NCBI GenBank assembly: GCA_015061805.1
Contig: SUVV01000001.1
Span: forward strand, 62,001-126,000
Source of the DNA: Lentisphaerota bacterium
GTDB taxonomy: Bacteria > Verrucomicrobiota > Lentisphaeria > Victivallales > Victivallaceae
Direction: 5' to 3'
DNA length: 64,000 nt
Every line of letters starts with the position of its first letter. Within the stretch, counting starts at the first letter, position 1. This document shows, piece by piece, positions 2,459 through 44,703 of this stretch. The position numbers and the translations under genes were made by a program. The notes beneath the pieces are model-generated. The model was given only the letters and a program-made list of their open reading frames with translations. It did not search any database and was not told the DNA's origin.

Positions 2459-2512
2459 GGGAGAGGGGAAAAAACTTTTTTTCACGAGAAAAAAAGTTTT
2501 TTCCCCTCTCCC
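2459..2512. repeat. Long inverted repeat, copy A1 (convergent junction tsaB/GH42-like)
   Basis: Perfect 25-bp arms (2459-2483 and 2488-2512) with loop ACGA. The left arm begins gggagaggggaaaaaac, followed by a T7 run and C. It sits eight bases after the tsaB stop and is followed by the shared tail CCCCTTTTTCAAAAAAAG and CGGGGTAT. It is one of five related copies in the window. It is likely to act as a strong transcription terminator, but its conservation across loci and its presence inside coding sequences mark it as a dispersed repeat. Confidence 0.9.
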
Positions 2513-3120
2513 AAACCCTCTCCCCTTTTTCAAAAAAAGCGGGGTATGTTTGCTCCCGTTGGTCGCAAAACAGGAAACATAAACTTATCATATCCTTACT
2601 CACGAAGTGAGCGCTTCACGTTGATTTACATCACAAACCAACACAATAGCGGGATATGTTATAAATTTATCATCTCCTTACTCACGAAGTGAGCGCTTCA
2701 CGTTTGCCGCAGGCAAACGCTTCACATTGCGAAGCAATGCTTCACGCAGGATTTATCCTGCTCTTCACGTTGGTTTGCAACGCAAAACAACACAATCATC
2801 TCCTTACTCACGAAGTGAGCGCTTCATGTTTGCCAAAGGCAAACGCTTCACATTGCGAAGCAATGCTTCACGCAGGATTTATCCTGCTCTTCACGTTGGT
2901 TTGCATACGCAAACCAACACAAAAGCCGCTCCGTTGTCGCGGCAAGACTATAAATTTATCATGTCCTTACTCGCGTAAGCGAGCGCTTCACGTTTGCCGC
3001 AGGCAAACACTTCACATTGCGAAGCAATGCTTCACGCAGGATTTATCCTGCTCTTCACGTTGGTTTGCATACGCAAACCAACACAAAAGCCACTCCGTTG
3101 TCACGGCATAACGAAAAAAT
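2513..3120. repeat. Composite hairpin-chain repeat array with CTTCAC linkers
   Basis: About 600 bases without a gene. It holds four irregular copies of a chain of short hairpins separated by (G/T)CTTCAC: CTCAC-gaa-GTGAG, GTTTGCC-gca-GGCAAAC, ATTGC-gaa-GCAAT, GCAGGAT-tt-ATCCTGC and GTTGGTTTGC...GCAAACCAAC. The chains start near 2599, 2681, 2807 and 2970, with spacings of 82, 126 and 163, so this is not an exact tandem repeat. I count twelve CTTCAC linkers plus one CTTCAT. Each complete unit ends with a TCCGTTGTC-looped hairpin and TATAAATTTATCAT. The ORFs called here (for example 2689-3111) are just translations of the repeats. Confidence 0.85.
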
Positions 3121-7346: not shown

Positions 7347-8372
7347 TCAATCCTTATACTCCGGGTTCAAGTAGATCAGGTCTGCCTTTTTGGTTGAACC
7401 GCTCTTAAAAGCACGCATCGTTGAGTTTGCATTCTTTTCCGTAGAAACGTGCCCGTCAACAAAACTCACATTCGCAGAATTGTTATGCCGATCATGAATA
7501 TTGCCGCTACCGGAACCAAGACCGTAGAAATAGGCAAATCCGGCAGTGTACGCAGGCTTGCTGTTGATGGAATCTTTCAACACAGTATCAGCAAATGCCA
7601 CCGTCCGGCCGGGACGAATCGCTTTACCGGCTTTCATACTCGGCACCACACGGATTATCTTGCTGGTCACGCTCGTCTTAATGTAATCGCTGGCGATACC
7701 GGCATTGATACCATAATGGACATAGCGCATTGAAGTCGAGGTACCGGTCTTACTCGGCTTGACAGTCCGGATATCATTTTCATACTGCCATTTATGCACC
7801 GAAGGACACAGCAATACGCCATTGGGAATATAACCGTAAGCAATGAAAGTAGCACTCCATTTATGATAACTGACATTACGGGCACCCAAAACCACATAAT
7901 CATCATAATCAGGCATATAGTGCGAAAGAGCGGTATTCAACTGCTTGATATTATTGGCACAACTTGAAGTTGCACCTCTGGCTCTGGCACTCTGCAGTGC
8001 CGGAAGCAGAATTGCCGCCAGAATGGCGATGATAGCGATGACAACCAGCAGTTCTATTAAAGTGAAAGGCTTTATGGGAGAGGGGAAAAACTTCTTTTCA
8101 CGGGAAAAGAGGTTTTTCCCCTCTCCCAAACCCTCACCCTTTTTCAAGAAAAGCGGGGTATTTTTAAGAGATTCGATCAAGCCCGACCAACGGGATGGGC
8201 GCGACACCTCCGAAGCGGCACGTTTGCCGCTCAAAAAAAGCGGAGTATTTTGCAGCTCCAGTTTGTCGCTGCTCTTGAAAAAACGCAGAGATGAGATAGA
8301 AGTATTTACGAGGAGTTCGATAAGAGTGAAGAATGGCTTCTTCACTCCGGCATGCCGGAGATTCTTTTTCAT
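7347..8372 (-). CDS. Prepilin-type H-X9-DG protein with duplicated FTLIELLV leader (pilin 1)
   Basis: A 341-residue type II pseudopilin-like protein. It has two FTLIELLV motifs, at residues 15-22 and 103-110. Only the second runs into the hydrophobic helix ([17 protein letters not shown]), so it is the functional membrane anchor. The 80 residues between them are translated repeat DNA. The C-terminal [12 protein letters not shown] fits the H-X9-DG motif of prepilin-processing-associated proteins. Such proteins are normally cleaved before Phe by prepilin peptidase and assembled with, or secreted by, a type II system. The start has AAAGGA upstream. It lies between pilin 2 and the GH42-like enzyme, in one transcription unit. 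Whether both motifs are processed is unknown. Confidence 0.85.
8067..8306 (-). repeat. In-frame 240-bp repeat insert in the pilin 1 leader
   Basis: Exactly 80 codons between the two FTLIELLV coding segments (8043-8066 and 8307-8330). In plus orientation it holds long inverted repeat A2 (8076-8127), the shared tail CTTTTTCAAGAAAAGCGGGG, a CCCGaccaaCGGG hairpin, GCGGCA/TGCCGC, and GCAGC-TCCAGTTTGTC-GCTGC. The last loop resembles the TCCGTTGTC loop of the intergenic array. The element therefore runs antisense to the host gene yet keeps its reading frame open. Confidence 0.85.
8076..8127. repeat. Long inverted repeat, copy A2 (inside pilin 1)
   Basis: 24-bp arms 8076-8099 and 8104-8127 with one mismatch that still allows a G-U pair; loop ACGG. 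The left arm begins gggagaggggaaaaac, as in A1. In the gene it encodes part of the leader insert ([11 protein letters not shown]). Confidence 0.85.
8345..8360. repeat. 16-bp palindrome CTCCGGCATGCCGGAG in pilin 1 leader codons
   Basis: A perfect palindrome encoding LRHAG in the leader upstream of the first FTLIELLV. The same 16 bp recur at the same place in pilin 4 (40154-40169). It abuts a second hairpin (8325-8346) that includes the Phe-Thr codons. Confidence 0.8.
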
Positions 8373-8427: not shown

Positions 8428-9282
8428 TCACAACACCGGATTGTCTACGGTTATCAACTTGCTGCCATCGGTATCCAGCCAGACACAAAGTGAGTTAGTT
8501 TTGCCTTTATATCCGATAACATAGTTTCTGGCTTCGGCGTGGCCGTCCATAAAAAGCGTATTGGCTCCACCGGGATGTGCCGCAAATTTACCGTAAGAAA
8601 TATTGGAGGTATAACGGGCAAGCACGAGATCAAAAGTTTGTGACGTCACCCCCGCCGGAACCGGCTGGGTTGTCGTCCACTTTTCGGTAAACATGATAGT
8701 ATCTTTTATATGCTTATTCGGCTGTGAATTCTTTTTGTAATAGGTGCTGTCATTTATCTTGATACGGGGATTGCTCTGAACCGCACTGGCATATCCGATA
8801 TAATAGTTGTAAGCATAACTTTGAATGATCTTATTACCATTCCAATGAGTGGGGTTTTTGGGGTTACCCGGACATTGGAAAAGATCAAAATAAAGATAAC
8901 CATTAATTTTTTTGGAGGCCTTCACCCAACCGCGCTCGTACAGCATATCATCCCACATACCAACTCCGAGAGCATAAGCCGGGAGCAGCATTTCGCCATA
9001 AGCTTCAGAGTAACGGTAACTGAGAATATTAAGCTGCTTGAGGTTATTGAGACAACTGGTTCCCTGACCGCGCTTACGCGCCTTCTGCAGCGCCGGAAGC
9101 AAAAGCGCTGCCAGAATGGCGATGATGGCGATGACAACGAGAAGTTCAATAAGGGTAAAGTCAACTTTACCCTGCCCATGGGCAGGCTTTTCACGATCAC
9201 AGCAGAGATGTGAACTTTTCACGAGAAGTTCTATCAACGTAAAACATCTGCCGGATTTTCGAGAGAGAGAATGTTTGATCAT
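8428..9282 (-). CDS. Prepilin-type H-X9-DG protein with duplicated FTLIELLV leader (pilin 2)
   Basis: 284 residues from ATG 9282, which has AAAGGG upstream; the track start at 9309 is a TTG with no ribosome-binding site. FTLIELLV occurs at residues 14-21 and 42-49. Only the second precedes the membrane helix ([17 protein letters not shown]). The 20-residue spacer is built from palindromes (9153-9186). The C-terminal [12 protein letters not shown] fits H-X9-DG. The gene is 55 bases upstream of pilin 1 and 36 bases downstream of the SGNH hydrolase, same strand. A pseudopilin-like role at the cell envelope is inferred from the leader; no substrate is known. Confidence 0.85.
9153..9186. repeat. 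Two adjacent palindromes at the second FTLIELLV of pilin 2
   Basis: GGGTAAAGTCAACTTTACCC (9153-9172; 9-bp arms, two-base loop) is followed by CCTGCCCATGGGCAGG (9171-9186). The first palindrome covers the codons for Phe-Thr-Leu of the second FTLIELLV. Both belong to the 60-bp leader insert 9160-9219. Confidence 0.85.
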
Positions 9283-9318
9283 TTTGACACACCCTTTCAA
9301 TATTTTCAACTAAAAATG

Positions 9319-26732: not shown

Positions 26733-26951
26733 ATGGTTGAACGGGTTATGAGAGAACTCGGCAGGCGGTTAAAGAAAACCGCCTACACTTGGAGTGATAA
26801 AGGAGCGACAAAAATCGTAAGAATAATATTAAAACGGTTTACAAATACCAAAGCGTGGGAGGACTATTGGCAAGAAAAAATGAATTGTGCAGGCAATGTT
26901 GCCGTCAACATTGGCAATTATAAATGTTTTTTACCAAATTCAGGACAATAA
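26733..26951 (+). pseudogene. C-terminal remnant of a transposase
   Basis: 72 codons resembling the C-terminal end of DDE-type transposases (RVMRELGRRLKKTAYTWSDKGATKIV, then KAWEDYWQEKM). A stop lies just upstream in this frame, and the preceding codons (MQGKTQWLNGL) fall in another frame, so the 5' part is missing or frameshifted. I cannot assign the IS family with confidence. It ends one base before the ATG of pilin 3, directly beside the most repeat-rich prepilin gene. The rest of the 26517-26952 gap holds the thioesterase promoter and nothing else I recognise. Confidence 0.5.
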
Positions 26952-26952
26952 C

Positions 26953-28008
26953 ATGAAATTAAAAAGTTTCACTTTGATCGAACTTTTGGTGGATACTGTT
27001 ATCTCATCTCTGCGTTTTTTCAAGCGCGGCGACAAACTGGAGGTGCAAAATACTCCGCTTTTTTTGAGCGGCAAACGTGCCGCTTCGGAGGTGTCGCGCC
27101 CATCCCGTTGGTCGGGCTTGATCGAATCTCTTAAAAATACCCCGCTTTTCTTGAGCGGCAAACGTGCCGCTTCGGAGGTGTCGCGCCCATCCCGTTGGTC
27201 GGGCTTGATCGAATCTCTTAAAAATACTTCGCTTTTTTTGAAAGAGAAAGGGGGCGCGGGGGAAAGAGGAAACTTTTTTTCCCGTGAAAAAAAGTTTCCT
27301 TTGTCCCCCGCACACTCCCGTTTCACTTTAATAGAACTGCTGGTTGTCATCGCTATCATCGCCATTCTTGCGGCGATTCTGCTTCCGGCATTGCAGCAGG
27401 CGCGTGCCCGGGGGATCGCTACCACCTGCCTCAACAACATGAAGCAGATATCCACCGCCAATCATGCGTACATGGACGATCACGCCGGATTCCTGCCGAC
27501 CAACCGCTGGCAGGTTGACGGCAGAACCTGGGTAAAGTGTCTTTACACCTACATTACCGGTAAAAGCAATCACTTCATCGCCAATGCCGATACCCAAGTC
27601 CTTGACGGCGTGATCTGGTGTCCGGTTCAGGCGAGCAACACCGCAAGTCAAAGCAGTTTCAACTCCAACAATGTCTCCTACGGACTGAATCACTTTCTTT
27701 CTCCTTTTTCCAGTTATTCCTCCAGCAAACTCACCCATTACAAGCAACTTTCCACGCTGATACTGTTTGCGGAAACCATCAATGCTGATGCAAGCAAGAA
27801 CGTTGCGCAGGCGAAGACCGGCAGATATCTCTTTTCGGAATCTTATCACTACAACGGCCGCCACTTCGGTAAAATCGTTTCCGGAAACAACGGTTACTAC
27901 TTTTTCGACGGTCAAGCCAACCTCATTTTCGCTGACGGTCACGTCGCGCCGGAAAAGGTCATGCCTCTGCGGGACAAGAGCAAATGGGCTCGCCCGATCT
28001 ATCCGTAA
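26953..28008 (+). CDS. Prepilin-type protein with duplicated FTLIELLV leader (pilin 3)
   Basis: 351 residues from ATG 26953; the track start at 26887 lies within the transposase remnant. FTLIELLV occurs at residues 6-13 and 124-131. Only the second leads into the transmembrane helix ([20 protein letters not shown]). The 110 residues between are repeat-encoded, including two in-frame copies of a 29-residue unit ([14 protein letters not shown]...). The C-terminal [10 protein letters not shown] keeps the DG of H-X9-DG, but the His is replaced by Phe. It precedes the secreted DUF4838 protein by 46 bases, so the two probably form a unit. Confidence 0.85.
27047..27220 (+). repeat. Tandem 87-bp repeat, two copies plus partial third
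   Basis: Units begin with AAAATACTCCGC (27047) and AAAATACCCCGC (27134), with a partial third at 27221 (AAAATACTTCGC). The period of 87 is 29 codons, so copy number can change without breaking the frame. Pilin 1 has one full unit of the same sequence. Confidence 0.9.
27256..27311. repeat. Long inverted repeat, copy A3 (inside pilin 3)
   Basis: 26-base arms (27256-27281 and 27286-27311) with two mismatches. The core is GGAAACTTTTTTTC / GAAAAAAAGTTTCC. It encodes [12 protein letters not shown] in the leader insert. Confidence 0.85.
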
Positions 28009-31041: not shown

Positions 31042-32658
31042 ATGCTCAGTGATATCGAAATCGCCAGAAACACTGCTATCCGCAATATTTCCTGCGTTGC
31101 CGCCGAACTCGGTCTGCCGGAAGATAATTATGAACTTTACGGCAAATACAAAGCTAAATTAACCGGGATCACCGCTCCGCGCAAAGGAAAACTTATTCTG
31201 GTAACGGCAATGACGCCGACCAGGCAGGGCGATGGCAAGACCACTGTTTCGATCGGACTTGCAGACGGACTGCGGAAAATCGGTAAAAAGTCGATCCTCG
31301 CCCTGCGGGAACCTTCTCTGGGTCCGGTTTTCGGGATGAAAGGCGGAGCCACCGGAGGCGGATATTCGCAAATCGTCCCGATGGAGGATATCAATTTGCA
31401 CTTCACCGGAGATTTTCATGCAATAACCAGCGCCAACAATCTGCTCTGCGCCCTGATCGACAACCATCTGCAGCAGGGAAATCCACTCGGCATCGACCCC
31501 AGAACCATCGTTTTCAAACGTTGTCTGGACATGAATGACCGTGCGTTGCGCCACGTGGTGATCGGCATGGGCGGCAAATCCAATGGTGTCGTGCGGGAAG
31601 ATCATTTCTGCATCACCGTCGCAACTGAAGTCATGGCGATCTTCTGTCTGGCGACCAGCCTTGAAGATCTGGAAGAGCGACTGGGCAATATCACCGTTGC
31701 CAAAACTTATGATAAACGCGAAGTCAAAGCGCGGGATTTGAAAGCCCCCGGCTCGATGACCGTACTGCTCAAAGAAGCCTTCCGCCCCAATCTGGTGCAA
31801 ACTCTGGAAGGGACTCCGGCAATCGTCCACGGCGGTCCCTTTGCCAATATCGCCCATGGCTGCAACTCGGTTCAGGCAACCGATACGGCATTGCGCCTTG
31901 CCGATTATGTAGTGACTGAAGCCGGATTCGGAAGTGATCTCGGCGCAGAAAAATTCCTTGACATCAAGTGCCGCAAAGCCGGTCTTTCTCCGGACTGCAC
32001 GGTATTGGTCGCCACGATAAAGGCAATGAAACTTCACGGCAACGGCGATATAAAAACCGGATTTGCCAATGTCAAAAAACACTTTGACAATCTCCGCAAT
32101 CGTTTCGGAATCAACACGGTAGTGGCACTCAACCGCTTCGGCACCGACACGGCGGAGGAAATTGCACTGTTCCGTCAACTCTGTGCTGAAAACAGTATGC
32201 CCTGCTCCATCTCCAGCGGCTTTGCCGACGGCGGTAACGGCTGCATCGAACTTGCAGAAAAAGTGGTTGAGGAAGCCGAAAAGCAATCAAACCTCCAATT
32301 CCTCTATGAACTTTCCGATTCCATTGAAGAAAAAATCACCAAAGTCGCGCGCAAATGCTATGGTGCGGACGGAGCCGTTTTTTCCGGCACTGCCGCGAAA
32401 AAACTCGCAACTCTTGCCCCGGAATATACCGGATACCCGATCTGTATTGCCAAGACCCAGTATTCATTTTCCGATGACCCGAAACTGCTCAATGTCCCGG
32501 CAAACTTCAATATCAACGTCCGTGATATCGAAGTCAAAAGCGGCAGCGGCTTTATCGTTGTCTACCTCGGAGATATCATCACCATGCCCGGCTTGCCCAA
32601 AGTTCCCAATGCCGAAACAATCAAACTGGAAAACGGCGAAACCGTCGGTCTCTTTTGA
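31042..32658 (+). CDS. fhs: Formate--tetrahydrofolate ligase
   Basis: 538 residues. Converts formate, ATP and THF to 10-formyl-THF, feeding purine synthesis and one-carbon or acetogenic metabolism in anaerobes. The P-loop-like TPTRQGDGKTTVSIGLADGL is near residue 60; LREPSLGPVFGMKGGATGGGYSQ, FTGDFHAITSANNLL and the C-terminal GDIITMPGLPKVPNAE are family signatures. Slightly shorter than the usual 550-560 residues but complete. Monocistronic, with a promoter upstream and long inverted repeat A4 starting 11 bases after the stop. Confidence 0.95.
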   Translation: MLSDIEIARNTAIRNISCVAAELGLPEDNYELYGKYKAKLTGITAPRKGKLILVTAMTPTRQGDGKTTVSIGLADGLRKIGKKSILALREPSLGPVFGMKGGATGGGYSQIVPMEDINLHFTGDFHAITSANNLLCALIDNHLQQGNPLGIDPRTIVFKRCLDMNDRALRHVVIGMGGKSNGVVREDHFCITVATEVMAIFCLATSLEDLEERLGNITVAKTYDKREVKARDLKAPGSMTVLLKEAFRPNLVQTLEGTPAIVHGGPFANIAHGCNSVQATDTALRLADYVVTEAGFGSDLGAEKFLDIKCRKAGLSPDCTVLVATIKAMKLHGNGDIKTGFANVKKHFDNLRNRFGINTVVALNRFGTDTAEEIALFRQLCAENSMPCSISSGFADGGNGCIELAEKVVEEAEKQSNLQFLYELSDSIEEKITKVARKCYGADGAVFSGTAAKKLATLAPEYTGYPICIAKTQYSFSDDPKLLNVPANFNINVRDIEVKSGSGFIVVYLGDIITMPGLPKVPNAETIKLENGETVGLF

Positions 32659-32669
32659 GACGGTGTGAA

Positions 32670-32725
32670 GTGGGGGAAGGGAAAAACTTTTTTTCACGAG
32701 AAAAAAAGTTTTTCCCTTCCCCCAC
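32670..32725. repeat. Long inverted repeat, copy A4 (convergent junction fhs/heparinase)
   Basis: Perfect 26-bp arms (32670-32695 and 32700-32725), loop ACGA, arm core GGGAAAAACTTTTTTTC. It is followed by the shared tail CCTTTTTCAAAAAAAGCGAG. Confidence 0.92.
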
Positions 32726-32890
32726 ACCCCCATCCTTTTTCAAAAAAAGCGAGGTATGTTTTGCTCGCGTTGCTCGCAAAACGGGAAGTATAAACTTATC
32801 ATATCCTTACTCACGAAGTGAGCGCTTCACGTTTGCCGCTCCGCTTGTCACGCCATAGCCTTTGGCGAAGGCGGATTATCGCGGCATGAC
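32726..32890. repeat. Tail and hairpin-chain part of repeat copy A4
   Basis: Contains the tail, TTTTGC-TCGCGTTGCTC-GCAAAA, TAAACTTATCATATCCTTAC, the CTCAC-gaa-GTGAG hairpin, GCGCTTCAC and a degenerate end with GCCTT-tggcg-AAGGC. It is a shorter relative of the 2513-3120 array. No gene is present. Confidence 0.8.
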
Positions 32891-32935
32891 AAAAAAAATC
32901 TGCTGCCGGCACTTTGCCGACAGCAGATTTTTTTT
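32891..32935. terminator. Bidirectional terminator between fhs and the heparinase cluster
   Basis: AATCTGCTG...CAGCAGATT arms with an inner CGGCA/TGCCG, flanked by A8 on the left and T8 on the right, so it can terminate in both directions. It lies 18 bases after the heparinase 1 stop. Confidence 0.85.
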
Positions 32936-32953
32936 GGGGGGAAAAAGCAACTC

Positions 32954-35053
32954 TTACTTGACCGAGAGTTTACCTTTCTTATCGATCACAACTTCGATCT
33001 TTCTGCCGTCGAGCAGCTCGACCGTTGCGCCGTTGACCCCTTTTTGCACAATGGATTTCAACGGACTGTTTTCCTTGTGACCAAGCGGGATGAACATGGT
33101 AAGAAAACGCTGTTCTCCTTTCGCCGCCGCACGGCTGTGGGTGATGGTGGTCGTCTTGCGATAAGGATGAATGGCGTAAACTCCGGCAAGTTCATTCCAC
33201 TTGCCACCGGTCTTACCGGTGATGTGTTCGACCTTGACCCCCTCGGTGAAGAGCGGAGCGACCACCAGACGGTTGCGCTTTTTGTTGCCGCGTTCTTTTT
33301 TAAGCGTGGATGCTTCCGGCGAAGAGATCAGCGCCGGATGACCTTCCAGAGCAGAGGACATTTTCAGCGTATCAACGTGCCAGCGGGCCTGATAAGCGTG
33401 CGGCTGTTTGGCACCGCGTTTGGTCGGGATCATCCGATCCAGCACAATGAAAATATCCGGACGGACAAAGACCACCTGACGGTCATGCAGGACTATCTTG
33501 TTGCCGCTGCGTCCTCCCCAGCCCTTGTCAAAAACGCCACGGGCATAGTCCTTTTTGGCATCACTATTGAAGTCTCCGGTAACCGGCTTTTTAAGGATCC
33601 GATCCGGTGATTTCGGAGCGGAATTGGTCGCCTGTCCGGTTCCATCGACCGAAACAAGGTTGTGCGCCAGACTGGAAACCGTATAATTGCGGAAACGGCT
33701 CCGGGCGTAACTGCCGCCGCCGTCATCGTAAAGCAACTGATCTTTGCCTTTCCAGATGGCGATATTGAGTTTATCCTGATGGGCGTGACGCATACCGAGG
33801 GGACCGATATCGAAAATGAGGTAGTTGGCGTTGGGTTCCCATGATTCGCGCATGACCACAAAACCTGACCACGGCATCAGCACCGAAAGATATTCCGGAG
33901 CCTTGCCCAGTTTACGTCCGGAGTGCATCCAGAGAAAATCCTGACGGTGCGGGAAAAGTTTCACTGCACCTTTGAAAAATCCCATCATATCCGCATGCCG
34001 CGAATCGTTGGTAAGCGGCATATCCGGTCCGGGAGTACTCAAGCGGATAAAGGCATCGTAACTCTTTTCCAACAGACCGATGAAGTCTTCAGGCATCTCT
34101 TTGGCAAATCCGCAGTCTGTTGCCAGCGTGAACATCTGCACCATCAATCCGGTAACCGTCCGGTGGTAACTGTTGGTAAGTTCGTTGAGGAAGCCATCCG
34201 GCAGGAACATATCGCGGGTCTTTTCATAGACCTGCATGACCGCATGTTTACGATTTGCGGCGGCTTTCTTGAATTCGGGGAACATCGCGGCAAAGGTAAA
34301 GAGTCCGTTCATCTCCATGATGAAGATGTTGCCGTAAGAGTTGAATTTGTGCAGTCTGCGGCTGTGAACAAGACTGATATAGCAGTAGAGCATGATATCA
34401 TCATCGGTGAATTCCGGAGCCTTGACAAATGCCGCATAGGCAGGAGCCCAGTAACTTCCCAGACGCAGTCCCATATCAATATTGCGCCATGCGGAATTCT
34501 CGTAGTTTCCGCTCTTGTCTTCCGGCGGCGGCGGACAGTCGACCACCCAGTTGCGCAACTGGCGGGCGAAGGTCGCGGCATACTCTTTTTTGCCGGTATT
34601 CCGGTATTCGGCAGCCATATCCACGAACCAGCTCATCCGGTTCAGCTGGCTCTGCCACTCCCGGTCAAACATTCCCGGGATATCTTTGGTCTTGTTGTAG
34701 AACCAATCGATGCGGCGATTGGGAAACTTATGGCTGTTGGCACCGTAAGTCCAGATGTAATTCAAGCCCTGATTGGCTTTGCCGCGGGTTCCGGCGTGCC
34801 GGGTACGTTCAATCATCACCTGCGGCTGTTTTTTATTGCGGAGGTATTTGACGAATTCAGTCGAAGCACCCTTTTTATCTCCGGCGAGGAAGCACTTTCT
34901 GGCACTTTCCAATCCGGGATAATCCCAGTTGATTTCGGAGAGAACCAGATCGCGCCACTCATCTTTCAGCACCGAACGGTCAAGTTCATCGCCGTGAACC
35001 ATACCGGCGGCAAACACCGCCAGTACCAACAGAAAACAGATTTTCCTGAACAT
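32954..35053 (-). CDS. Secreted heparinase II/III-family polysaccharide lyase (paralogue 1)
   Basis: 699 residues with a signal peptide (FRKICFLLVLAVFAAGMVHG). The N-terminal alpha/alpha toroid contains NYIWTYGANSHKFPN, RIDWFYNKT, WQSQLNRMSW and the conserved catalytic-region GFLNELTNSYHRTV. The C-terminal beta sheet domain has GPLGMRHAHQDKLNIAIW and DDGGGSYARSRFRNY. These match the heparinase II/III superfamily, which cleaves uronic-acid polysaccharides (heparan sulfate, alginate, ulvan) by beta-elimination. The substrate is unknown. Last of three tandem paralogues, with terminator 32891-32935 downstream; nine bases from the next paralogue. Confidence 0.85.
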   Translation of the reverse strand: MFRKICFLLVLAVFAAGMVHGDELDRSVLKDEWRDLVLSEINWDYPGLESARKCFLAGDKKGASTEFVKYLRNKKQPQVMIERTRHAGTRGKANQGLNYIWTYGANSHKFPNRRIDWFYNKTKDIPGMFDREWQSQLNRMSWFVDMAAEYRNTGKKEYAATFARQLRNWVVDCPPPPEDKSGNYENSAWRNIDMGLRLGSYWAPAYAAFVKAPEFTDDDIMLYCYISLVHSRRLHKFNSYGNIFIMEMNGLFTFAAMFPEFKKAAANRKHAVMQVYEKTRDMFLPDGFLNELTNSYHRTVTGLMVQMFTLATDCGFAKEMPEDFIGLLEKSYDAFIRLSTPGPDMPLTNDSRHADMMGFFKGAVKLFPHRQDFLWMHSGRKLGKAPEYLSVLMPWSGFVVMRESWEPNANYLIFDIGPLGMRHAHQDKLNIAIWKGKDQLLYDDGGGSYARSRFRNYTVSSLAHNLVSVDGTGQATNSAPKSPDRILKKPVTGDFNSDAKKDYARGVFDKGWGGRSGNKIVLHDRQVVFVRPDIFIVLDRMIPTKRGAKQPHAYQARWHVDTLKMSSALEGHPALISSPEASTLKKERGNKKRNRLVVAPLFTEGVKVEHITGKTGGKWNELAGVYAIHPYRKTTTITHSRAAAKGEQRFLTMFIPLGHKENSPLKSIVQKGVNGATVELLDGRKIEVVIDKKGKLSVK

Positions 35054-35062
35054 AAAAAAACC

Positions 35063-37234
35063 TTACTTTACAGTTGCAGATAATTTACCTTTTTTATCAA
35101 TGGAAACGTTGAGTTTTCTGCCGTCAGTGAACTCAACGACTGCTCCGTCATTGCCTTTCTGAACGATGGATTTCAGCGGATTGGCTTCCTTGTTGCCCAA
35201 CGTAACGAACAAAGTGAGGAAACGCTTTTCTCCCTTGACTTTGGGGAAAGTATGGGTGATGGTGGTCGTCACCCGGAACGGATGCACCGCATAGACACCG
35301 CCAAGTGTCGTCCAGTCACCTTTTGACTTGCCGGAAACCGTTTCGACCTTGAGATCTTTGGTAAAGAGCGGAGCAACGATCAGGCGGTTGCGGTTCTTGC
35401 GGGCGCGTTCATTATCTTTGTTGCTGATAGAAGATTCCGGAGTGGTGATCAGCGCCGGGTGTCCATCCAGCGCAGGAAGAACTTTCAGCGTATCGACATG
35501 CCAGCGGGCCTGATAGAGATGCGGCTTTTTGACACCGTTTCTGACCGGGATCATCCGGTCGAGCACCACAAAAAGATTCGGGCGCAGATAGAGAACCTGC
35601 CGTTCCTGAACCACATATTTGTTATTGCCGTTGCGGTCACGTCCCCAGCCCTGATCGAAGATGCCTTTGGCATAATCGGTCTTGCCGTCTGAAATCAGGA
35701 CGTTTTTCAGCGGTTCACGCAGAATACGGTATTTGTCGCCGCCGGTACTGGTGGACTGCCATTTGCCGTCAACCGAAATCAGGTTATGAGCCAGACTGGA
35801 GAGGGTATATTTACGAACCATGCTCCGGGCGTAACTTCCGCCGCCGTCATCATAGAGCAGCATATCCTGACCTTTCCAGATGGCGATGTTGAGTTTATCC
35901 TGATGCTGATGGCGCATACCGAGGGGGCCGACATCAAAGCAGAGGTAAGAGGCTTCCTTGTCCCAGGATTCACGCATGATGACAAACCCAGCCCACGGCA
36001 TGACGGTCGAAAGATATTCCGGATGTTTACCGGCTTTGCGGTTGCTGTGAACCCATTTGAAATCTTCCCGGTGCGGGAAGTATTTTACCGCTGCCGAAAA
36101 ACGTTCAAACAGTTTGGTGTGACGGCTGTCGTTGGTCAGCGGCATATCAAATGCCGGAGTCATCATATGCACCTGGGCATCGTAGGCGCGTTCCAGCAGT
36201 GCGATAAAGTCTTTGGGCAGTTCATCACCGACTCCGCAATCGTTGGCAATGCGGAAAGCGTGGAGCATATCACCGATAACGCCGCCGTGATAACTGTTGG
36301 TAAGTTCGTTGAGGAAACCATCCGGCAGCAGCATTTTGTTGACATTGGTATAAAGCCCATTGATCGCCAAAGCGCGGGCGGCCTTGGATTCCTTGAATTC
36401 CGGGAACATGGAGTTGAAGGTCAGAACACCATTCATCTCCATAACGTAGATGTTACCGGTGTTGGTGAATTTCTGCAGATGGCGGCTCTGGATGAGTCCG
36501 AGATAGCAGTAGAGGATGATGTCTTCGTCCTTGAATTCCGGAGCGCTCAAAAATCCGTAAAAAGCCGGAGCCCAGAAATTGGCAAGACGCAATCCCTGTT
36601 CAATACCGCGCCAGATCGAATCCCTTCCGTTGGCGTGTTTCGCCGGAGCCGGGCCGCAGATCGCCGCCCAGGAACGCAGCTGCCGGACAAAGGCGGTCGC
36701 CCAGCGGGGATCTTTATCGACCTGATAAGCCGCCGCCATCGCGGCAAACCAGCGCATGCGGTTGAGCTGCCACTGCCATTCAAAGTCGGTCATGCCGGGG
36801 ATCTCTTTGGTCTTGTTGTAGAACCAGTCGATTTTCTGATTGGGGAACTGGTGGCTGTTGGCGCCGTAAGTCCAGATGTAATTCACGCCTTCATAGGCGC
36901 GTTTTTTATCGATCCGCTGAAGTGATTCACGGAAAAGTGACGGTATTTTGCGGCTGCGAAGATATTTGGCAAAGGCGAGAGCCGCGCCCTTTTTATCATT
37001 GGCAAGATAAAGTTTTTTGGCATTTTCCAAACCGGGGTAGTCCCAGTTTACGGATTTGAGTACCTCGTCACGCCACTCATCTTTGAGCAGCGGCTGGGAA
37101 AACTCATCTTTGACTTCGGTTGTCCACAAAATTTTTCGCGGAGAAACGAATTTTGCTTTACCTGCCGGTTTGGCAAATGCGAAGATCGATGCCGCACACA
37201 GCAAAGTTGCCAAAACGAATTTGGATTTTTGCAT
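35063..37234 (-). CDS. Secreted heparinase II/III-family polysaccharide lyase (paralogue 2)
   Basis: 723 residues: signal peptide (QKSKFVLATLLCAASIFAFA) plus a roughly 25-residue extension before the common LLKDEWRDEVLKS start. The toroid and sheet motifs of paralogue 1 recur (NYIWTYGANSHQFPN, GFLNELTNSYHGGV, GPLGMRHQHQDKLNIAIW, DDGGGSYARSMVRKY). One of the His-rich positions is altered (MRHQHQD versus MRHAHQD), which may tune substrate. Middle gene of the cluster, 17 bases from paralogue 3 and nine from paralogue 1. Confidence 0.85.
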   Translation of the reverse strand: MQKSKFVLATLLCAASIFAFAKPAGKAKFVSPRKILWTTEVKDEFSQPLLKDEWRDEVLKSVNWDYPGLENAKKLYLANDKKGAALAFAKYLRSRKIPSLFRESLQRIDKKRAYEGVNYIWTYGANSHQFPNQKIDWFYNKTKEIPGMTDFEWQWQLNRMRWFAAMAAAYQVDKDPRWATAFVRQLRSWAAICGPAPAKHANGRDSIWRGIEQGLRLANFWAPAFYGFLSAPEFKDEDIILYCYLGLIQSRHLQKFTNTGNIYVMEMNGVLTFNSMFPEFKESKAARALAINGLYTNVNKMLLPDGFLNELTNSYHGGVIGDMLHAFRIANDCGVGDELPKDFIALLERAYDAQVHMMTPAFDMPLTNDSRHTKLFERFSAAVKYFPHREDFKWVHSNRKAGKHPEYLSTVMPWAGFVIMRESWDKEASYLCFDVGPLGMRHQHQDKLNIAIWKGQDMLLYDDGGGSYARSMVRKYTLSSLAHNLISVDGKWQSTSTGGDKYRILREPLKNVLISDGKTDYAKGIFDQGWGRDRNGNNKYVVQERQVLYLRPNLFVVLDRMIPVRNGVKKPHLYQARWHVDTLKVLPALDGHPALITTPESSISNKDNERARKNRNRLIVAPLFTKDLKVETVSGKSKGDWTTLGGVYAVHPFRVTTTITHTFPKVKGEKRFLTLFVTLGNKEANPLKSIVQKGNDGAVVEFTDGRKLNVSIDKKGKLSATVK

Positions 37235-37251
37235 GATATTACCTCGCTATA

Positions 37252-39345
37252 TCAATTTTTGATAATTGCTTTCAACACATTTTTTACTACAGAAACTTCC
37301 AGTTTTCTTCCATCATTGAAAAGAACTTCCGCAGAATCAATGCCGGTTTGCCGGATCGATTTCAATGGAGAAATTTCCTTGTTGCCGAGAGTGACAAACA
37401 TGGTGAGAAAACGCACTTCCCCTGCCCCGGCGCGCTCGTGCATCACCGTCGTCGTCGCCCGGTAGGGGTGAAAGGCAAAGAGTCCGGCAAGTTCATTGCA
37501 CTTGCCCTTATCCTGTCCGGTAAGTTGTTTTACCGAAAGACCTTCAGTAAACAATGGAGCAACAATAAGTTTGGCACGTTTGCCGGAGGGATTGCCGCGC
37601 ATTTTGGGAAGTTCGATCGAAGATTCCGGGGATGAGATCAGCGCCGGATTCCCATCAAGCACCGGGGACATTTTCAAAGTATCTACATGCCAGCGCGCCT
37701 GATAAACGTGAGGTTTTTTCGCGCCGCGTTTGGTCGGGATCATCCGGTCAAGCACCAGAAAAATATTCGGGCGCAAAAACAACACCTGCCGTTCCTGACG
37801 GACGATACGATTTCCGGAACTGCCCCACCCCTGATCAAAAATTCCGCTGGCATAATCCACCTTGCCGTCACTCTTGAAGTTTCCGGACACGGGATTGCTC
37901 AAACGCCGGTTTTTCATGCTTGCCGAAGTCACCTGCGGCAAACCGTCAACCGTAACCAGATTGTGGGCATAACTTGAAATGGTATATTTACGGGATTCCG
38001 TCTTGGCATAATTGCCGCCGCCGTCATCGTAAAGCAGTTGATCCTGGCCACGCCAAATTGCAATATTCAATTTATCCTGATGCGCATGACGGACACCGAG
38101 GGGGCCGACATCAAAGACGAGGTAACTTGCATCATGTTCCCAGGAGCCGCGCATGATGACCAATCCTGACCACGGCAGCACGGTAGATAGATAATCCGGA
38201 GCACCCCCCTTTTTCCGGTTGCTCTGCACCCAGAGGAAATCTTTGCGGTGCGGGAAAAGTTTCGCCGCCGGAGCAAAAAACGAAACCAGACGCGAATGTC
38301 CGGAATCGTTGGTCAACGGAGCATCAAAAGCCGGAGTTGCCATTTTGAGCAGAGCCTCAAAACTCTTTTCCAGCAAAGTGACAAAATCTTTCGGCAGTTC
38401 CTTTTTCACGCCGCACTCATCGGCGAGAGTGGCAAGTTCGTAAACGTTGGCGACGACCAAACGGTGATATCCGGTGGTCAATTCATTGAGGAAGCCATCT
38501 TCAAGAAGCATGTTTTTAGCGCTGTTGTAAAGCGTTTTTACCGCATATTTGCGGGCTTCTGCGGATTCTTTGAATTCCGGGAACATGGCGCCAAAAGTAA
38601 ACAATCCGCGCATTTCCATCGTCAGGATATTGCCGGTATTGTTATATTTTTTCAAATGCCGACTCTGCAGCAATGTAAGATAGCAATAGGTCAGCACGTC
38701 ATCATCAGTAAACTCATTTGCCTTGATGAATGCCACATAAGCCGGGGGCCAGAAGCGGTACAAACGCAGTCCGCAGGTAATGCCGCGCCACGCCGAATCC
38801 GGACGGTTGCCGCTGTGTTCCGGTACCTGATGACACGCCGCCGCCCAAGAACGCAACTGCCGGACAAAAGCGATAACATATTCCTTATTGCCGCTTTTGA
38901 GATAAGCGCCAGCCATTGCCGGAAACCACGGCATCCGGTTCAACTGCCATTGCCATTCATAGTCGAGTCTGCCGGATTCGCGGGTCTTGTTAAAAAACCA
39001 GTCGATCTTTTTATTGGGGAAACAGTGGGAAGTTTTTCCGTAAGTGTAGGTATAATTCAAGCCTTGGGCGGCGCGGGATTTGTCGTAGGAAGCAAGAGAA
39101 TTAAGGTAAGACGCCGGCTGTTTTTTAGCACGGAGATATTTGACGAATTCAAATGAAGCCGCCTTCTTATCATTGGCAAGATAGAGTGCTTTCACCTTTT
39201 CCAGTCCGGGGAAGTCGAGATCGAGGCTTTTCAAAACCTCTTCCCGCCACTCTTCCCGAAGCACAGGAGAAACGAATTCATCAGCAAAAACCGCGATGCA
39301 AAAGATCGCGGTCAGTAAAAAAAGCGCCTTTTTCAAAAACATCAT
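37252..39345 (-). CDS. Secreted heparinase II/III-family polysaccharide lyase (paralogue 3)
   Basis: 697 residues with a signal peptide (FLKKALFLLTAIFCIAVFA). Same architecture as the other two: NYTYTYGKTSHCFPN, IDWFFNKT, GFLNELTTGYHRLV, GPLGVRHAHQDKLNIAIW and DDGGGNYAKTESRKY. It departs most at the TYGKTSHCF segment, which is TYGANSH in the others. It is the first lyase after pilin 4, 17 bases downstream, so the pilin gene and three lyases look like a single operon from the 40242-40270 promoter. Confidence 0.85.
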   Translation of the reverse strand: MMFLKKALFLLTAIFCIAVFADEFVSPVLREEWREEVLKSLDLDFPGLEKVKALYLANDKKAASFEFVKYLRAKKQPASYLNSLASYDKSRAAQGLNYTYTYGKTSHCFPNKKIDWFFNKTRESGRLDYEWQWQLNRMPWFPAMAGAYLKSGNKEYVIAFVRQLRSWAAACHQVPEHSGNRPDSAWRGITCGLRLYRFWPPAYVAFIKANEFTDDDVLTYCYLTLLQSRHLKKYNNTGNILTMEMRGLFTFGAMFPEFKESAEARKYAVKTLYNSAKNMLLEDGFLNELTTGYHRLVVANVYELATLADECGVKKELPKDFVTLLEKSFEALLKMATPAFDAPLTNDSGHSRLVSFFAPAAKLFPHRKDFLWVQSNRKKGGAPDYLSTVLPWSGLVIMRGSWEHDASYLVFDVGPLGVRHAHQDKLNIAIWRGQDQLLYDDGGGNYAKTESRKYTISSYAHNLVTVDGLPQVTSASMKNRRLSNPVSGNFKSDGKVDYASGIFDQGWGSSGNRIVRQERQVLFLRPNIFLVLDRMIPTKRGAKKPHVYQARWHVDTLKMSPVLDGNPALISSPESSIELPKMRGNPSGKRAKLIVAPLFTEGLSVKQLTGQDKGKCNELAGLFAFHPYRATTTVMHERAGAGEVRFLTMFVTLGNKEISPLKSIRQTGIDSAEVLFNDGRKLEVSVVKNVLKAIIKN

Positions 39346-39362
39346 CTATCTTTGCAATACTC

Positions 39363-40184
39363 TTACTTTGACTCATCGGTGCCGCGGAAGTTGCGCCCGC
39401 GCAAATAGTATTCAACCGCTTTGATGTTGCCAATATTGGGAACATTGATCATGGTAGAACCGGCAATATGGGAGAAGCGGTCGGCGTGTCCATCGATCGC
39501 AACAAACTGAACCGCCTTGTTATGAGACAGCCACAACAGACCGTTATAACTCTGAGTATCAGGATTAAGCGAGCTGGCGCCCCAATAGTCCATACTGTCA
39601 CCCATAACGGCACGGGTAGCATCGGCAAAGGCGAATTTATGAGAGGGCCAGCGGAACTGACTGATTTTCTGCCCGCGCCATTGTCTGCCGCCGACGCGGA
39701 TAAAAGCGCCGAGATAATCGGATTTACCGTAACCGCCATACTGAGCGCGAACACTGACTTTACCATCCTCTTGCCAATATGTCATCATGTTTCCGCTGGA
39801 AACCTTAATTTTTCCTTCGAGATGCATGCTGGCGGGGCAAAGCGGAGTCGCCGCGATCCGACCATCAGTGCCGACGCGACTGCAGAGGGAATCTGCATAT
39901 TTTCCATCAAAAAAGAGACTGTACCACTTGCTGCTGGTCGATTTGAAAGGAATTTCAACCGGAACCACATAACCATCATTGTCGCTGGCGTAACTCTGTC
40001 CGGCGGCACCGAGTTGTTTCAAGTTATTGATACAACTGCTTGATTTACCGCGTTCACGCGCTTTCTGCAATGCCGGAAGCAGCATCGCCGCAAGAATAGC
40101 GATGATAGCGATAACGACTAACAGTTCGATAAGAGTAAAGCCAAAGGGCTTTACTCCGGCATGCCGGAGTGAAGATTTTTTCAT
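39363..40184 (-). CDS. Prepilin-type H-X9-DG protein with a single FTLIELLV (pilin 4)
   Basis: 273 residues from ATG 40184, with AGGTGG upstream; the track GTG at 40193 overlaps that site. One FTLIELLV (residues 16-23), preceded by Gly (PFGF), followed by [24 protein letters not shown]. No leader insert, making it the reference form for the other three. The leader contains LRHAGVKP, encoded by palindromes shared with pilin 1. The C-terminal [12 protein letters not shown] fits H-X9-DG. Heads the operon of three heparinase-family lyases. Confidence 0.87.
40135..40170. repeat. Two adjacent palindromes in the pilin 4 leader
   Basis: GTAAAGCCAAAGGGCTTTAC (40135-40154; 8-bp arms) overlaps by two bases ACTCCGGCATGCCGGAGT (40153-40170; perfect 18-bp palindrome). 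In gene sense the 3' arm of the first covers the Phe-Thr codons of FTLIELLV. Confidence 0.85.
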
Positions 40185-43405: not shown

Positions 43406-44479
43406 ATGGCTGCTTTTTATATCATTTCCGGAGATGACGATTTTGCCCGCAAACGCCGGGTGAGAGAACTGTGTTCATCTCTCTGCGGCAACCCGGAACC
43501 GGAAGAGGATGAAACCGTCGAAATCATCGCCGGTGATGACCAAAGCGTAAAACCGGATGAAATGGCGGCGGCATTCGTCGAATCGTTGCGGACTCCGCCA
43601 TTCTTATGCGAACGCAAGATCATCTGGATGCGCCACCACCCCGATCTCGATCTGCTGCTGGCTGAAAAATGTTCACAGGCGTACGCGGAACTGTTTTCGC
43701 TCCTCTCCTCTCCCCTGCCCCCGGAAGTCGATGTCATCATTGACGGCCCCGGGGTCGATCGACGCCGTTCAAAAGTAAAAGAGTTGAAAAATGCCGGTGC
43801 GGAAATCGAAATCTGTACCGCTGCAAAGGCGACTGATAAAGCCGCTGCCGAAAACAAACGGGAGATCATCAATAATTTCTGCCGCAAAAACGGCAAACGA
43901 CTCACTCCGGATGCCCAGCAGTATCTGCTCGAAGTCGTGGGCGGAGATTCCGGTACCTTGACCAATGAGCTGGAGAAACTGAATTGCTATACCGGCAACG
44001 CTCCGGAAATCACACTGGCAGATTGTCAGGCAATCATCAGCCGCACCCAGGAGGCACTGAATTGGGAATTCACCGGAGCGGTGGTCGAAAACAACCGCGC
44101 CAAAGCATTACTCACCCTTTCCAAGTTACTCTCGCAAAAAGAGAACGGTATGGAGATACGGATGCTGTACAGTCTCTCCAACGAATATCAACGCCTGATA
44201 CAGACCCGGCTGGCAATGAAACAACTCAATGTATCCAGAGCAAATCCCAATACGTTCAGCACCCTGCCGCCGGATGTAAAAGAACGTTTCCCGGATAATC
44301 CGCTGTTGAAAATGCACCCCTACCGGGCATTCAAGACCTGCGAAGCCGCAATGCGCTTTTCCGGAAATATGCTGGCTGAAAAACTCACCGCCATCCGCGA
44401 TGCCAACCGGGCATTGGTTTCCGGCGGCGGAGATAACCGGATCCTGCTGGAACAACTCGTCTGCAAACTCTGCAAATAA
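43406..44479 (+). CDS. holA: DNA polymerase III subunit delta
   Basis: 357 residues. Clamp-loader delta subunit; opens the beta clamp. Begins AAFYIISGDDDFARKRRVREL (family N-terminus), has the domain II/III region AQQYLLEVVGGDSGTLTNELEKL and the helical C-terminal collar NPLLKMHPYRAFKTCEAAMRFSGNMLAEKLTAIRDANRAL. The highly diverged sequence is typical of delta. No gap from the IPMS-family stop, so co-transcribed. Long inverted repeat A5 starts 21 bases after the stop. Confidence 0.85.
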   Translation: MAAFYIISGDDDFARKRRVRELCSSLCGNPEPEEDETVEIIAGDDQSVKPDEMAAAFVESLRTPPFLCERKIIWMRHHPDLDLLLAEKCSQAYAELFSLLSSPLPPEVDVIIDGPGVDRRRSKVKELKNAGAEIEICTAAKATDKAAAENKREIINNFCRKNGKRLTPDAQQYLLEVVGGDSGTLTNELEKLNCYTGNAPEITLADCQAIISRTQEALNWEFTGAVVENNRAKALLTLSKLLSQKENGMEIRMLYSLSNEYQRLIQTRLAMKQLNVSRANPNTFSTLPPDVKERFPDNPLLKMHPYRAFKTCEAAMRFSGNMLAEKLTAIRDANRALVSGGGDNRILLEQLVCKLCK

Positions 44480-44500: not shown

Positions 44501-44556
44501 ACGGGGGAAGGGAAAAACTTTTTTTCCCGGGAAAAAAAGTTTTTCCCTTCCCCCGT
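44501..44556. repeat. Long inverted repeat, copy A5 (convergent junction holA/membrane protein)
   Basis: 26-bp arms (44501-44526 and 44531-44556), loop CCGG, arm core GGGAAAAACTTTTTTTC as in A4. Followed by the tail CCCTTTTCAAAAAAAGCGGG. Confidence 0.92.
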
Positions 44557-44703
44557 ACCCCCATCCCTTTTCAAAAAAAGCGGGGTATTGGCCGCTCCGT
44601 TGTCGCGGCAAGACTATAAATTTATCATATCATTACTCACGAAGTGAGCGCTTCATGTTTGCCAAAGGCAAACGCTTCACATTGGGAAGCAATGCTTCTT
44701 ATC
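44557..44703. repeat. Tail and hairpin-chain part of repeat copy A5
   Basis: Order: tail, GCCGC-TCCGTTGTC-GCGGC, TATAAATTTATCAT, CTCAC-gaa-GTGAG, GCGCTTCAT, GTTTGCC-aaa-GGCAAAC, GCTTCAC, a degenerate ATTGGGAAGCAAT and GCTTCTT, ending at the stop codon of the 44704-45423 gene. The repeat thus reaches exactly to the neighbouring reading frame. Confidence 0.85.

Follow-up and report, generated by a model that had tools for sequence, protein, structure and literature searches.

REP sequences are defined as extragenic, palindromic, multi-copy repeats that share a common motif, are seldom found in protein-coding regions and span about 14-40 nt in E. coli (PMC12306157). Those associated with RAYT (REP-associated tyrosine transposase) are recognised in addition by a head sequence and by a transposase gene that is flanked by copies (PMC2817692). 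Rickettsia palindromic elements (RPEs) enter many unrelated genes (PMC10969869).

Here we describe a palindromic repeat family identified in 64,000 nt of a Lentisphaerota genome (contig SUVV01000001.1, positions 62,001 to 126,000), referred to as the window. The family occupies two niches. About 60 copies in this genome stand at a fixed place and in a fixed direction behind stop codons (class I), and about 17 lie in frame at the signal box of one expanded gene family, the prepilins (class II). Class I copies match the REP definition in being extragenic, palindromic, multi-copy and built on a common motif, and the likeness to REP/BIME repeats extends to a copy number of tens to hundreds, restriction to one genus, compensatory arm changes and the many copies behind stops. 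The element is nevertheless longer (a main palindrome of 52-60 nt in a unit of more than 100 nt), carries two extra hairpins, occurs as single copies in strictly fixed orientation and includes an in-frame coding sub-family. It also lacks the GT(A/G)G head of RAYT-associated REPs, as the positions outside the G-run vary (TGT, TTT, CTC, TGC, ATA) while remaining paired, and no linked Y1 transposase gene was found, either with a pair of inverted copies around it or otherwise.

Other known systems share single features with the element. Class II copies resemble RPEs in being palindromic, about 100-150 bp long and read in frame within protein genes, but those found belong to a single gene family and sit at one fixed box, whose duplication rebuilds the signal. 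MITEs, including the terminator-like SPRITE, RUP and BOX repeats of pneumococcus, are likewise small, non-autonomous, foldable intergenic repeats that nest in one another; in the element, no terminal inverted repeats are seen at the ends, no parent insertion sequence is known and no target duplication is visible, the empty sites of class I being too diverged to read one. Elements that integrate and then restore the target gene, as at tRNA 3′ ends, resemble it in bringing the missing part (here a half-box), rebuilding the product and inserting repeatedly, although the element has no integrase, its insert is only about 200-350 bp and it targets a coding box that dozens of paralogues share. Finally, its hairpin is stable and stands in the 3′ flank, where genes would have a Rho-independent terminator, but with an A/T-rich inner stem, 9-13 C-rich nucleotides instead of a T-run, and near-identical dispersed copies.

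We are evenly divided on the reading we nonetheless prefer, that the copies represent a non-autonomous, REP/MITE-like hairpin element that is not linked to RAYT and has settled in both niches.

Structure and distribution of the element

The five inverted repeats of the original prediction (A1 to A5) are all present in the window (Table 1). Their arms are near-perfect as described, with no mismatch in A4 and A5, one in A2 and two in A3, and the pattern of their common core has 12 matches in the window, where shuffled sequences gave 0.85 on average and never more than 5. Some details required correction. The four-base loop is as described except in A5, where it is self-complementary and thus forms no real loop, and the shared tail follows the palindrome on the plus strand in A1, A2, A4 and A5 but precedes it in A3 because A3 is inverted. 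The genomic context had been missed altogether: A2 and A3 (class II) lie within prepilin genes, and A1, A4 and A5 (class I) share a fixed orientation 5-18 nt behind stop codons, extended arms counted. The frame upstream of A1 has a weak TsaD-like match.

Table 1 Coordinates of the five copies and their associated features in the window.
Feature	Position	Strand	Context
A1, class I palindrome	2459..2512	+	8 nt behind stop of ORF 1797-2450
A1 tail, comprising a C-rich stretch, a small hairpin (CCCCTTTTTCAAAAAAAGCGGGG) and a third one (TGTTTGCTCCCGTTGGTCGCAAAACA)	2513..2572	+	from sequence
A2, class II palindrome	8076..8127	+	in prepilin gene 7347-8372 (minus), antisense, read in frame
A2 tail, towards prepilin N-terminus	8128..8162	+	
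Second prepilin box (FTLIELLV), A2 gene	8043..8066	-	first half element-borne (TTCACTTTAATAGAA)
First, native prepilin box, A2 gene	8307..8330	-	
A3, class II palindrome	27256..27311	-	in prepilin gene 26887-28008 (plus), antisense, read in frame
A3 tail, left of palindrome on plus strand	27221..27255	-	
Two tandem 87-bp units, 29 codons each, within A3 class II insert	27047..27220	+	
First, native prepilin box, A3 gene	26968..26991	+	
Second prepilin box, A3 gene	27322..27345	+	
A4, class I palindrome	32670..32725	+	about 11 nt behind stop of formate-tetrahydrofolate ligase gene 31042-32658
A4 tail with two smaller hairpins	32726..32784	+	
Ordinary terminator-like hairpin (A-run, GC stem, T-run) downstream of A4, separate from element	32890..32936	.	
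A5, class I palindrome	44501..44556	+	about 21 nt behind stop of DNA polymerase III delta subunit gene 43406-44479
A5 tail with two smaller hairpins	44557..44611	+	

The whole element measures about 110-140 bp. Its left end, TGTTCCCGATAAGGGGAGATG, forms a small hairpin that is often truncated at the gene end in the copies fetched. The main palindrome, with arms of 24-28 bp, is followed directly by the C-rich stretch and by one or two smaller tail hairpins: one of the type CCCTTTTTC-AAAAAAAGCGGG and, mostly present in this genome, a third of the form TGCCGC-TCCGTTGT-CGCGGCA or TTTTGC-TCCCGTTGGTC-GCAAAA, whose stem likewise varies on both sides. Five copies (L076, L091, L103, L106 and L107), drawn from both classes, carry a further small palindrome, GCCGAACGTCGGC, at one point of the right arm. 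A search of the window against Rfam at gathering thresholds returned no known RNA family.

Several neighboring features were noted along the way. Another repeat family (TTATCATATCCTTACTCACGAAGTGAGCGCTTCACG...), often in tandem, follows the tail regions at 2578-3033, 32789-32872 and 44615-44698. At two loci, L072 and L275, the upstream frame has its stop codon inside the left end (CGATAAGG), so the element may supply the stop of the gene. The class I left end (GTTCCCGATAAGGGGAGA) looks similar to some FTLIEL codons in reverse complement (GTTCGATAAGGGTGAA), a likeness that was noticed post hoc and does not count as evidence. Three tandem paralogues about 2.1 kb apart occupy 33138-39255; the one tested is heparinase II/III-like, and most matched stretches show 63-79% DNA likeness.

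The family is not confined to this contig. A covariance-model search of the genome (2.29 Mb in 34 contigs, incomplete) gave 149 matches over both strands at about 76 loci, corresponding to about 75 dispersed family copies, and core matches occur mostly as the paired arms of one palindrome. Closer analysis of this genome covered the stretches surrounding copies and prepilin genes. The element is present across the genus, with matches in 16 of 18 sampled congeners (dozens in several); the other two, 94-97% complete, had none. In 12 genomes that represent other genera of the order it is essentially absent, one of them holding three weak matches. Among the named MAGs with matches are Lentisphaeria of sheep colon, roe deer cecum and goat rumen, so the host of the window is very likely a gut Lentisphaeria. 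Contigs C4, C6, C9, C12, C21, C24 and C34 of genome G000 terminate inside or beside a copy, which truncates some copies and prepilin genes.

Covariation of the palindrome arms

The original prediction noted outer arm bases that differ between copies and yet remain paired. With pairs counted from the center outward and alignment gaps not used, outer-arm pairing reaches 93-98% in 59 distinct palindromes of this genome, compared with 60-78% when left and right arms from different copies are combined. This comparison reveals the expected excess of paired over unpaired substitutions, and the paired changes in the outer arm are real. Across 81 distinct non-coding class I copies from four species, 1918 of 1944 cells over 24 pairs (98.7%) are Watson-Crick, although these cells are not independent events, as many copies share ancestry. 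The left arm varies at 11 positions, giving 32 haplotypes that the right arm follows; 64 of the 81 copies are perfect over all 24 pairs, and half-changed intermediates are strikingly rare. One-sided departures comprise 6 G-U, 11 A-C and 9 other pairs; the lack of a G-U preference argues for a cause at the DNA level over selection on an RNA fold.

Class II copies behave differently. None of nine distinct copies is perfect, and shared mismatches persist across species. Between this genome and G018, the sister species and closest congener, a neighboring pair is altered on both arms of a class II copy, and the change alters amino acids twice (GERGN to GEREN and KKFPL to KKFSL). A putative mechanism that preserves the palindrome, as originally proposed, fits class I best.

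Class I copies behind stop codons

Among class I copies with usable flanks, 52 of 57 lie no more than 60 nt after a same-strand stop of a frame of at least 100 codons, compared with 18% of random intergenic points drawn from the same fetched loci (p about 1e-32). The median distance from the stop is about 12 nt, the orientation is single and fixed, and only two copies stand behind a gene ending towards the tail side. The arrangement recurs in the congeners G018, G016 and G015, where 29 of 33 class I copies follow a same-strand stop. The upstream genes include those for formate-tetrahydrofolate ligase and the DNA polymerase III delta subunit, along with others that, from their C-termini, we take to encode TyrS (tyrosyl-tRNA synthetase), enolase, TrpB (tryptophan synthase beta), HydF and RarA.

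Occupancy of these sites differs between sister species. G018 has no copy behind its FTHFS, HydF, RarA, enolase, MurJ, GDPD-like and CBS-protein stops, and its TrpB gene carries a copy of a different sub-family. Its TyrS gene has, at the place of the element, a compact terminator of ordinary type whose outer stem is similar, GGGAGAGG-TTTTA-CCTCTCCC-TTTTTT. At class I sites the intergenic DNA has diverged too far between species for a clean target-site duplication to be read from the empty sites of sister species.

A strict scan for terminators returned next to nothing and overlooked the one at 32890, and a relaxed, energy-based scan therefore replaced it. The relaxed scan detected no ordinary terminator between stop and element in the 52 cases and one within 420 nt behind the element in 12 of them. 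Of 38 control gene ends, nine have a terminator within 200 nt of the stop, with the T-run mostly 35-59 nt after it, and in G016 several copies (L267, L278 and L274) stand directly after a complete ordinary terminator. The element therefore occupies or displaces the terminator zone and is not itself a canonical terminator, a candidate identity that was rejected on the missing T-run.

This placement also invites a functional account, in which class I copies are 3′-UTR RNA elements whose long hairpin terminates transcription, impedes 3′ exonucleases or delays ribosomes at termination, and in which selection on the RNA maintains pairing, position and orientation. The fixed orientation and short distance from the stop, the predicted fold of A4 RNA (-61 kcal/mol, z -7), the position of control terminators at about the place of the hairpin and the compact terminator of TyrS in the sister species are all consistent with such a role. 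E. coli REPs within 15 nt of the stop lower translation (PMC12306157). The hairpin, however, lacks a T-run directly after the main stem, its one-sided changes do not favor G-U over A-C, the G016 copies named above come after a terminator that is already complete and that of A4 lies further downstream, and orthologues in the sister species do without the element. We consider this account possible but rather doubtful.

Class II copies in prepilin genes

The class II copies of this genome lie in prepilin genes with otherwise divergent bodies, the only genes in which in-frame copies were recognized here. Typically, the insert is bounded by two FTLIELLV boxes, the first of which is native, and the gene reads as native start, native box, leader, optional 29-codon units, palindrome, second box and body. 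The frame is open through the insert in all copies uncut by contig ends, and in relatives. Translation from the upstream ATG would give very long leaders; in one class II sub-family an in-frame TTG within the palindrome could start a leader of normal length.

The second box is a composite. Its first half is nearly constant (TTCACTTTAATAGAA in 13 of 17 copies) and its second half varies; in G003, the constant half is TTCACTCTCATCGAA in the three copies read. A half-box that is constant within a genome and differs in G003 indicates that it travels with the element. The prepilin at L049, which is filled in this genome and in G003 and empty in G018, resolves the junctions: the initial 17 nt of its first box (TTCACCTTGATCGAATT) and the final 9 nt of its second (TTGCTGGTC) are identical to the G018 empty site. 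Recombination within the box would give just such hybrid junctions. At the left end the junctions show less regularity, the first box being partial or missing in some genes, and L094 and L113 each hold two successive insertions.

Box-centered hybrid junctions, variable left junctions and near-identical leaders before divergent bodies would also arise if class II had no mobile history of its own, leader and palindrome being shuffled among prepilin paralogues solely by ordinary gene conversion, with class I as older fossils. Yet the main palindrome and tail also stand behind dozens of unrelated genes, and class I copies are both more perfect and more diverse than class II copies, the opposite of what fossils should be, which makes this an improbable history.

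Prepilin genes without the element were found to harbor further structure at the box. Many of them contain different palindromes, perfect or nearly so, in which the FTL(IE) codons themselves mostly form the right arm (for example GAGTAAAGCACGCGTGCTTTACTC, GGGTAAAGGAGAACTCCTTTACCC and TCAATCAGCGTTCACGCTGATTGA), at 40116-40139 and 9136-9159 (minus strand) in the window and at L059, L086, L109, L111, L292, L293, L297, L299, L304 and L306; in these genes the codon choice of the box and the upstream arm vary together. A second, unrelated insert (K.SHLCCDR...PAHGQ.K...) lies between two FTLIELLV boxes at 8428-9309 (minus) in the window, at L293 and at L306, and two of these three genes contain the palindrome TTCACCTGCCCATGGGCAGGTGAA. 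A search of the literature on prepilin palindromes in Lentisphaeria found nothing relevant.

Search for a parent element

REPs are reported to be extragenic palindromes with many near-identical copies whose changes compensate one another (PMC2817692), and a classical REP family moved by RAYT would account for these traits in the element. The GT(A/G)G head, though, is not a constant feature of the element, a Y1 transposase was detected in only 7 of 19 genomes and not in the copy-rich G002, G003, G005, G015 and G018, and the examined flanks of Y1 genes contain no copy at all, leaving a RAYT-driven origin very unlikely. A RAYT/IS200 parent was similarly rejected, as the only Y1 gene in this genome is broken and no copies lie beside those of congeners. 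A phage origin was discarded after zero matches in phage records (distant mode) and zero exact matches in viral contigs. Inverted DNA-uptake sequences doubling as terminators, an idea to which the location behind genes and the many prepilins (possible parts of competence machines) lend some appeal, are exceedingly unlikely given only about 75 copies, a unit above 100 bp and core matches that are mostly paired arms of the palindrome.

Discussion

We propose that the element spreads by a hairpin, single-stranded DNA or foldback-type process that would re-create perfect arms, and that the palindrome may be restored at the DNA level by template switching or foldback synthesis during copying. Entry into prepilin genes would proceed by recombination within the box of about 24 bp, through integration of a circle or gene conversion, and such box-to-box entry would rebuild the signal peptide. 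The one-directional placement of class I behind stops could reflect targeting of transcribed gene ends or a selected role in the 3′ UTR. Several points weigh against the mobile-element reading: no transposase or recombinase is tied to the element, class I sites yielded no readable target-site duplication, the strict orientation and position could also mean a selected 3′-UTR function, the box homology (24 bp, partly diverged) is short for ordinary homologous recombination, and the paired cells reflect in part the shared ancestry of many copies.

A broader and more tentative proposal, which we think less probable than the mobile-element reading, is that the FTLIELLV-coding box may generally act as a site for in-frame integration. 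Short palindromic modules from two or more unrelated families would enter by recombination within the box, restore it, be able to stack and so rebuild leaders, and their palindromes would be kept perfect by DNA-level repair or foldback and not by RNA selection.

These results describe one palindromic repeat family with two niches, a fixed place and direction behind stops and the signal box of one expanded gene family. The prepilin cases offer filled and empty orthologues together with stacked insertions, so the insertion route is directly testable. How bacterial palindromes stay perfect is an old question; with half-changed arms nearly absent in more than 80 distinct copies, RNA selection and DNA correction can be tested against each other within one genus.
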